64,000 bases of DNA, from positions 1 to 64,000 of the forward strand of contig NZ_JACIEP010000009.1 of the NCBI RefSeq assembly GCF_014196915.1, written 5' to 3'. Made by a program: the position numbers and the translations under genes. The notes under the pieces are model-generated. The model saw only the letters and a list, made by a program, of their open reading frames with translations, was not told the origin of the DNA and searched no databases. Below are positions 27,686 to 28,620 of the stretch, piece by piece. This DNA comes from Dysgonomonas hofstadii (GTDB lineage: Bacteria > Bacteroidota > Bacteroidia > Bacteroidales > Dysgonomonadaceae). Position 1 is the stretch's first letter. Each line of letters opens with the position of its first letter.

Positions 27686-28249
27686 TTATCTTTTTTTTAG
27701 AAATTGATTTATTTTTTTCAAAGACCGTTGAATCAGGTTCTGTACAGATTGATAATTCATTTCCATAAGCACAGATATTTCGTCTATACTCATGTTTTCA
27801 TAAAAACGATAGTGTATGACCTCGCGTTGCCGTATGGTCAGTGAATGTAGAGCGGCGGCTACAAGTGTATGTTTGTGGGTTTCACTTTCTTTATTTATAA
27901 AGTCGTCTTCTATATTACTGCTGTCCGATATCTGACCATATTCAGACTCGTCCAATGTTTCGAACGGTATTTTTTGTTTTTTTATAGCAGTTATGATACT
28001 ATTTCTTAATGCTACAAAGAGGTAAACCTTCAGATTATTCAGTGATTTCAGGTTTGCCCTGTTTTTATAGATTTTCACAAATACATCGTGTATACAATCC
28101 TCTATTACTTCCCTGTTGGAAGTAAACTGTAAACCCTGAATAAACAATTTTTTTGAATATTTCTCATAAATCAAGCCGTAGGCTTCCTCATTTCCCGAGA
28201 GGAAATTATCCCATAGCAGATTATCTTCAGAAGTATTCTTTATAAACAT
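27686..28249 (-). CDS. ECF RNA polymerase sigma-70 factor of the SusCD locus
   Basis: A 187-residue ECF sigma factor. Region 2 spans about 15-85 (EAYGLIYEKYSKKLF, then EVIEDCIHDVFVKIYKNRA) and region 4 about 125-180 (LTIRQREVIHYRFYENMSIDEI, with recognition helix NYQSVQNLIQRS). It is the first gene of the SusCD operon. Its ATG at 28249 overlaps by 10 bases the stop end of an upstream open frame (28240-28557) that contains a 38-base CT/AG microsatellite. This layout suggests translational coupling that could be switched by repeat slippage; see the findings. Confidence 0.92.
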   Translation of the reverse strand: MFIKNTSEDNLLWDNFLSGNEEAYGLIYEKYSKKLFIQGLQFTSNREVIEDCIHDVFVKIYKNRANLKSLNNLKVYLFVALRNSIITAIKKQKIPFETLDESEYGQISDSSNIEDDFINKESETHKHTLVAAALHSLTIRQREVIHYRFYENMSIDEISVLMEMNYQSVQNLIQRSLKKINQFLKKR

Positions 28250-28557
28250 AAATAAAAGGGATCATTCGGTCTGTAAGATATCAATGACAAGGATGTTAAT
28301 GTAATTCCTTGCCCTGTTACTGGTAGTTTGATTTTCGGAATAAAAGGGAAATACCTGACTTGGGATAAAAACACAACAATGCGATAAAATCCCGGTAAAG
28401 ATTTTATTACAAACGCCGGATAATTTGTTACTCTCTCTCTCTCTCTCTCTCTCTCTCTCTCTCTCTCTAACAAAATAGAGCTAACTGCCAAATTTTCAGC
28501 AAAAAAAAAGGCTTTACACATTGTATATAGTATTACTTTTTTTATAAAAAGATACAT
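28240..28557 (-). CDS. Possible upstream leader ORF carrying the (AG)19 repeat
   Basis: An open frame of 105 codons directly ahead of the sigma gene. It has no recognisable domain. In the middle the repeat is read as six Glu-Arg pairs. Its TAA stop at 28242-28240 lies just inside the sigma gene, so the two frames overlap by 10 bases in the manner of translationally coupled genes. A TATATTTG box on the minus strand at 28620-28613 could be its promoter -7 element. Whether the peptide has any function, or the frame is only a leader, cannot be seen. It may also be chance; the exact overlap is the main support. Confidence 0.35.
   Translation of the reverse strand: MYLFIKKVILYTMCKAFFFAENLAVSSILLERERERERERERVTNYPAFVIKSLPGFYRIVVFLSQVRYFPFIPKIKLPVTGQGITLTSLSLISYRPNDPFYLCL
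28431..28468. repeat. (CT)19 dinucleotide microsatellite
   Basis: 38 bases of uninterrupted CT on the plus strand, that is (AG)19 on the coding strand of the SusCD locus, 182 bases before the sigma start codon. Perfect dinucleotide runs of this length are prone to slipped-strand changes in copy number. Confidence 0.98.
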
Positions 28558-28612
28558 ATAATGTTTTCTGTTTTTAATTGAGAGTTAATATTTTATATAG
28601 GTTTTTATAATG

Positions 28613-28620
28613 CAAATATA
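28613..28620 (-). promoter_or_regulatory. Possible -7 box ahead of the SusCD leader
   Basis: Read on the minus strand the bases are TATATTTG, a perfect TAnnTTTG box. No clean TTTG is found at the standard distance upstream, so it is a weak call. It would place the transcript start about 50 bases before the upstream ORF. Confidence 0.3.

Follow-up and report, generated by a model that had tools for sequence, protein, structure and literature searches.

An (AG)n tract in a leader reading frame upstream of an ECF-type sigma factor gene of Dysgonomonas hofstadii and its family of putative phase-variable leaders in Bacteroidales

The window, meaning the whole 64,000-nt stretch analyzed (Dysgonomonas hofstadii contig NZ_JACIEP010000009.1, positions 1 to 64,000), carries on its minus strand a run of four genes encoding an ECF-type sigma factor (27686..28249; Pfam Sigma70_r2, r4, and r4_2), a FecR-type anti-sigma factor (26435..27616; FecR and FecR_C), a SusC/TonB-dependent receptor (22835..26299; STN, CarbopepD_reg_2, and Plug), and a SusD-like lipoprotein (21207..22811; SusD-like_3 and SusD_RagB). 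The sigma factor, the FecR anti-sigma factor, the STN-bearing SusC, and SusD in one run are the Pfam composition of a trans-envelope locus. The sigma factor gene was presumed to be the switched gene and the SusC gene its target, as gene order suggests that the sigma factor drives the latter.

Upstream of the sigma factor gene and on the same strand, a leader ORF of 105 codons (28240..28557, minus strand, counted from its ATG) contained an (AG)19 tract on its coding strand (28431..28468, minus strand), which Tandem Repeats Finder reported as (CT)19.0 with a 100% match. The start of the leader ORF is ambiguous, as a second in-frame ATG is present at Met-13, and the ORF gave no Pfam match. A preliminary description of this DNA had stated that the 105-codon frame ends with a TAA over the sigma start and overlaps the sigma ORF by 10 bases; this agreed with the coordinates (TAA at 28242-28240, sigma ATG at 28249) and with the Tandem Repeats Finder result. 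The (AG)n tract encodes alternating R and E in whichever frame it is read and is free of stop codons in all three. Adjoining the tract, and in the same frame, is the conserved end of the leader peptide, ENLAVSSILL (28468..28497, minus strand), whose 30-nt core was identical in two other loci (L013 and L191). A run of nine T on the coding strand (28501-28509), which also lies within the leader ORF and precedes the AG tract by 32 nt, is a second possibly slippable site, where a slip would likewise shift the leader frame.

About 56 nt upstream of the leader ATG lies the sequence TATATTTG (28613..28620, minus strand), which we take to be a Bacteroidota-type -7 element (consensus TAnnTTTG); no fitting -33 element was seen by eye in the window. 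Imperfect AT-rich inverted pairs flanked the -7 element (e.g., 13 nt at 92% and 15 nt at 80%). A 13-nt inverted pair with at most one mismatch also occurred in 18 of 100 shuffles of the window promoter; the inverted repeats do not exceed the shuffle level, and an invertible promoter, although conceivable, is not supported at this locus.

The spacer between the tract and the sigma ATG (28250..28430, minus strand) places the ATG 181 nt past the tract end. When the frame was traced for different repeat numbers (n), the next stop was found 188 nt after the tract for n = 19, 0 nt for n = 20, and 166 nt for n = 21, the frame of which is shared by n = 18. The spacer was thus closed at once for n = 20 and open to near the ATG for n = 19 and for n = 18 or 21. 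The frame tracing bore out two further statements of the preliminary description, namely that 20 units bring an immediate TAA (located at 28430-28428) and that 18 units end the frame at a TGA (28264-28262) 12 bases before the sigma ATG. Two of the three frames being free of stops until at most 20 nt from the sigma ATG was rare among shuffles (P = 0.0008); any one such frame was not significant alone (P = 0.083). In the 181-nt spacer, no intrinsic terminator was found at or below -12 kcal/mol and none by pattern, the sole candidate being weak (-11.6 kcal/mol) and the fold z-score -1.48, and a clear intrinsic terminator was ruled out at the window locus.

The genome contained nine tracts of (AG)≥6 (n = 31, 24, 18, 20, 18, 22, 19, 26, and 19), and all nine were preceded by the same leader motif, ...ENLxVxxILLE(RE)n, or a close variant of it, which ruled out a chance origin of the tract. 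A family set of at least 133 unique tracts was assembled from Dysgonomonas, Paludibacter sp. 221, and other Bacteroidales records, with n ranging from 7 to 58 and with no two tracts sharing both the same 30 nt on each side and the same n. For the genome survey, the N-free pattern TTTTVTTAGAGAGAGAGAG was used, and it matched 13 of 61 genomes (this one included) with 1 to 12 matches per positive genome. Matches occurred in 12 of 25 genomes of the same genus, in 1 of 12 genomes of the family that belong to other genera, and in none of 24 from outside the family. When genomes were drawn evenly from the order, 2 of 295 were positive, namely this genome and one congener, and thus the leader element is rare outside the genus. 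A contig scan returned at least 112 stretches, mostly from Dysgonomonas, Paludibacter sp. 221, and metagenome-assembled genomes (MAGs) labeled Dysgonamonadaceae, Tannerella, and Prevotella or Prevotellaceae. The few found elsewhere were in Porphyromonas and, as likely chance matches, in Mycoplasmataceae, Treponema, and K189A-clade records. A phage origin was ruled out, as the two viral-contig matches both had n = 7 and no leader.

Across the 133 tracts, an in-frame ATG was located upstream of the tract in 123; it lay 60-100 nt before the tract in 117, and the first in-frame ATG was exactly 80 nt upstream in 57. The leader peptides were clade specific (SENLEVSSILLE, LINSxxLVxxDILLE, and NAFANVKMFAVISILLE); their ILLE end is partly forced by the search pattern, which forces neither the ATG position nor the remainder of the peptide. 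The mean codon-position entropies of the leader, with several clades mixed, were 1.25, 1.24, and 1.15. The promoter motif TANNTTTG was present in the 110 nt before the leader ATG at 72 of 118 loci, compared with 12.7 ± 3.5 in shuffles (maximum 23 in 200 shuffles). A role of the tract as a promoter spacer was ruled out, as the motif lies upstream of the leader in these 72 loci, and its absence from the other 46 counts against an explanation by frame switching. Some leaders carried further repeats. Immediately after the (AG)24 tract of L010 comes a CACACACACACA run, so that this leader holds two dinucleotide repeats; L027 has a similar RE-to-TH peptide. In L121 (4301-4530), an N run separates two tracts spaced by about 210 nt, which may reflect a tandem duplication or an assembly artefact.

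Five loci (L082, L114, L133, L140, and L154; n = 8 or 6) were excluded before the set of 133 and the terminator, frame, and downstream-gene counts were made, as they were judged after inspection to be chance occurrences by their setting; L114 and L140 would have fitted the pattern. The downstream ORF was defined as the first one within 900 nt that had at least 100 aa, or at least 60 aa when truncated at the end of the locus. This gave 95 entries, of which one was a duplicate and 94 were scanned; 30 tracts had no such ORF, and a few of the ORFs are spurious. Among the best 25 of 37 Pfam families matched, the TonB receptor plug was assigned to 34 ORFs, sigma-70 regions to four, TIG to three, HU-type DNA-binding domains to three, and NusG domains to two. 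At the other eight loci of this genome, the leader precedes TonB-receptor-type genes in four (L009, L011, L013, and L016), a GH88 hydrolase gene in one (L012), and genes for presumably secreted proteins without a Pfam match, which share VTIG or ITIG near the N-terminus, in three (L010, L014, and L017). In the last three, the (V/I)TIG(S/T)-type gene lies about 430-630 nt after the tract, and one frame is open for about 490-570 nt. The module also precedes NusG-like genes at L095 and L139, which may encode specialised antiterminators of surface polysaccharide operons.

Terminator-like hairpins were counted when they had a free energy of -12 kcal/mol or lower, a cut-off of our own choice, and a T-rich tail, with all widths allowed. 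Within 260 nt of the tract, they were found in 40 of 71 non-redundant loci (clusters of 98 loci), compared with 7 of 213 dinucleotide shuffles, and at -20 kcal/mol the corresponding counts were 25 of 71 and 2 of 213. Over the whole gap to the next gene, for which no matched shuffle was made, 45 of the 71 had a hairpin, and 44 of these hairpins started at least 10 nt after the tract. The whole-gap set comprised 95 of the 133 loci (71 non-redundant), the remainder having no downstream gene in reach or containing N runs. The frame counts cover 69 loci, namely 44 with a terminator and 25 without; L063, whose hairpin starts 3 nt after the tract, was left out of the terminator class, and L137 (Treponema, without leader) was left out of the frame counts and retained in the sets of 133 and 71.

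At least one frame was open from the tract into the hairpin in 43 of the 44 terminator loci, compared with a mean of 20 and a maximum of 28 in 1000 shuffles and with 21 of 44 on the antisense strand. No locus had all three frames open into the hairpin, where 4.8 were expected for independent frames (P = 0.006). Both a frame reading into the hairpin and a frame stopping at least 15 nt short of it were present in 43 of the 44; the exception was L190, whose two longer frames end short of the hairpin by 6 and 13 nt. The loci thus keep one state in which a ribosome would enter the hairpin and one in which it would not, as a switch needs. The first open frame stopped inside the hairpin in 21 of the 44 loci, at most 27 nt past it in nine, and at least 45 nt past it in 13; these last 13 count against an explanation by frame switching. 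In the assemblies, the observed frame was open in 24 of the 44 terminator loci and, at 60% of the gap, in 8 of the 25 others, and both states are thus represented.

The window locus is one of the 25 loci without a detected terminator, some of which have hairpins weaker than -12 kcal/mol. In 15 of the 25, the longest frame extended over 90% or more of the distance to the next ATG (shuffles: mean 2.1, maximum 5; antisense strand: 1 of 25). In four of the 25, no frame reached 60% of the gap, which counts against the frame-switch explanation. At L044, L153, and L169, one leader frame is stop-free far into the downstream surface gene and may yield a protein with an N-terminal extension that precedes an internal signal peptide. 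Three sigma loci were evaluable, namely the window locus (L015), L097, and L098, as the fourth (L034/L093) was left out of the frame counts owing to an N run after the tract. Their open frames stopped 188 and 166 nt after the tract at L015 (ATG at 181), 155 and 163 nt at L097 (ATG at 147), and 266 nt at L098 (ATG at 272). In shuffles, this was unusual for L098 (P = 0.022) and not for L097 (any frame, P = 0.56; two frames, P = 0.10). An (AG)≥4 repeat was absent from the 420 nt upstream of nine homologs of the window sigma gene within the genus, these being nine of the 17 matches outside this genome. The sigma factor therefore works elsewhere without the leader module, which counts against the frame-switch explanation here, and these sequences suggest gain or loss of the module at the window sigma locus.

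Repeat numbers were compared with one genome per species, so that variation was seen between similar loci and between species, and the tract lengths are assembly values, in which errors are possible. Two loci of one assembly, L106 and L135, were 93.5% identical over 416 nt and had n = 28 and 12, respectively; their stops were rotated from [23,18,178] to [178,23,18], and the frame was thus switched, although this assembly is a metagenome bin in which strains may be mixed. The frame was also switched between L072 and L155 of one assembly (90% identical; n = 15 and 17). It was unchanged between L166 and L184 (n = 8 and 29), L021 and L185 (n = 9 and 36), and L047 and L174 (n = 16 and 19), the repeat numbers of which differ by multiples of three. 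Many short tracts of 7-10 units (L021, L071, L162, L165, L166, and L167) were observed in the MAG of Dysgonomonas sp. UBA7710 (G019), and three loci of another species that align to G019 loci (L183-L185) had 29-36 units; either assembly collapse or biology may account for this.

We consider it likely that the tract switches a phase-variable leader ORF, the frame of which decides ribosome passage. Transcription would start just upstream, and ribosomes would translate the conserved short peptide and then the (AG)n tract. A slip of one unit would move the downstream frame by 2 nt, such that one or two of the three frames would carry the ribosome across the leader and at least one would stop it soon after the tract. 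At most paralogs, a continuing ribosome would enter the terminator hairpin and block its formation, allowing transcription of the surface gene (ON), while an early stop would leave the terminator free to form (OFF). At the window sigma locus, a long frame (n = 19, or 18/21) may let ribosomes arrive at the sigma start and increase sigma output through translational coupling, Rho protection, or both, either of which is likelier there because no terminator was found; at n = 20 (or 17), translation would end about 180 nt short and sigma output would be low. The predicted states are thus ON for n = 19, ON or intermediate for 18 and 21, and OFF for 20 and 17. As the sigma factor presumably controls the FecR-SusC-SusD operon, one slip would toggle the receptor.

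The preliminary description had proposed that slips switch the delivery of ribosomes to the sigma start. This gains from the family, across which the same frame logic recurs with strong statistics, and from the similar loci of one assembly that differ in n and have opposite frames. What has to be revised is its setting. This genome has nine copies of the leader module, of which the one before the sigma gene is a single example, and in 44 of 69 tested family members the frame would control whether ribosomes pass an intrinsic terminator. No such terminator was found at the window locus, so the best-tested mechanism is not directly applicable there, which counts against the switch explanation set out above. 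Ribosomes may plausibly be delivered to the sigma start at this locus, but the sigma subclass is small, with three evaluable loci.

The loci without a terminator are also where two narrower explanations find their evidence. In the first, polarity alone, untranslated leader RNA in the closed frames would be terminated by Rho and ribosomes in the open frames would shield it, with no re-initiation at the gene. Loci without a terminator often have one frame open for hundreds of nt (stop at 490 nt for a gap of 473 nt, 445 for 489, and 439 for 464), the antisense strand being open in 1 of 25. Such polarity would not require the stop to lie at the sigma ATG, and as the sole mechanism we regard it as a real but minority possibility. 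Under strict translational coupling, the version in the preliminary description, the leader would end at the start codon of the next gene and the ribosome finishing there would re-initiate, which would account for this placement: the stops at L015 (188 and 166 vs. 181), L098 (266 vs. 272), and L097 (155 and 163 vs. 147) are close to the ATG, and the longest frame stops within 45 nt of it in 12 of the 25 loci without a terminator. However, a frame running into coding sequence gives stops just inside the gene anyway, L097 was not significant, and where a terminator is present, the first open frame mostly (30 of 44) ends within the hairpin or a little beyond it rather than at the gene start. We regard coupling alone as doubtful.

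Two other explanations do without a frame switch. The AG tract might act as RNA or DNA with the reading frame incidental, as a protein or small-RNA site comparable to TRAP on GAG/UAG repeats or as a promoter spacer; its identical sequence and orientation to the next gene in all tracts and its widely varying length would agree with this. A tract that is blind to frame would nevertheless leave the frame pattern after the tract unexplained, and a spacer does not agree with the 72 of 118 loci whose promoter motif precedes the leader ATG; we regard this explanation as very unlikely. It is also very unlikely that the leader encodes a functional small protein ending in (RE)n, with the tract being mere low-complexity coding sequence. 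The conserved peptide before the tract and its fixed frame would be expected of such a protein, but the part after the tract varies between loci without its frame being kept, and the leaders sit directly before unrelated surface genes. Translation-controlled passage of ribosomes through the leader is the best-fitting mechanism.

Several known systems resemble parts of this mechanism. In the contingency loci of Haemophilus and Neisseria, slipped-strand change in dinucleotide or tetranucleotide repeats acts as a switch. The window locus differs from a classical contingency locus in that its tract belongs to a different ORF and is separated from the sigma ATG by 181 nt, and the tracts described here lie in a separate upstream ORF rather than in the switched gene or a promoter spacer. 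In ribosome-mediated attenuators such as the trp leader, also discussed in PMC3894217, leader translation decides terminator formation; leader translation would likewise be decisive here, but no metabolite sensing is apparent, and the signal would be the heritable frame state. Phase variation in Bacteroidota is known mainly through DNA inversion. Nakayama-Imaohji reportedly described in 2009 the phase variation of SusC/SusD genes in Bacteroides fragilis by invertible promoters; random on/off control of SusC/SusD genes would be common to both, with DNA inversion as the means in B. fragilis.

The closest counterpart is pil1 of Streptococcus gallolyticus, for which a leader-peptide attenuator model was supported by mutants (Danne et al. 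2014, PMC3894217). There, a long leader ends within or beyond the terminator hairpin, which switches on the surface operon, and short leaders end upstream of it. The present family matches pil1/pil3 in having the repeat in a leader ORF, where a slip shifts the frame; switching is random and reversible for pil1 (PMC3894217) and would be so here. In silico, the family carries a repeat in a leader ORF upstream of a gene and a stop that is moved across a terminator, as in pil1. The window locus was not filed as a strict pil1-type attenuator, as it lacks the terminator. The family differs from pil1/pil3 in its dinucleotide AG (vs. GCAGA), in its occurrence in Bacteroidales (vs. Firmicutes), in the reuse of one module at 1-12 loci per positive genome (nine here, vs. 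two), in its targets, which include SusC receptors, other secreted proteins, and NusG-like and ECF sigma genes, and in the 25 of 69 loci without a detected terminator, most of which have a frame running toward the next gene. A review of S. gallolyticus (PMC5891635) concerns, by its topic, the same kind of system. In passages of another review (PMC11868660), inversion alone is covered, and attenuation, leader peptide, gallolyticus, and terminator are not mentioned; the available part of another paper (PMC7366714) describes Bacteroides sORFs as "reminiscent of leader peptides" and names no repeats.

Among the literature matches listed, with most subscription papers and bioRxiv outside the scope of the search, no Bacteroidota case, AG-tract leader, or sigma-linked form was found, and PMC3894217 and PMC5891635 were the only ones recognized as describing this kind of system. 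A leader-frame repeat switch as such is already known from pil1/pil3, and the AG-based, multi-copy, Bacteroidales, and sigma-linked form would be new within the scope of this search. It is probable, with less assurance than for the switch itself, that in Dysgonomonas and some related Bacteroidales the leaders form an array of independently frame-switched modules before outer-membrane genes (nine here and twelve in one relative) and that the sigma-linked form toggles a sigma/anti-sigma/SusCD circuit without a terminator.

Such an array would let a clone sample hundreds of surface states, and the sigma-linked switch would sit one level up, delivering or withholding ribosomes at the sigma start and making random switching of a whole transport regulon directly testable. 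Repeat slippage would then be a second route of phase variation in Bacteroidota, readable from sequence alone, and tract length would predict ON or OFF per locus in isolates and metagenomes. The family suggests that the attenuator-plus-repeat design of a streptococcus is also present in an unrelated phylum as a reused, multi-copy module. This module sits on nutrient receptors, which are plausible phage and immune targets. Elsewhere in the window, away from the leader locus, a perfect 14-bp tandem repeat (TATAAATTATGAGT; 2.9 copies) was located at 59236-59275.
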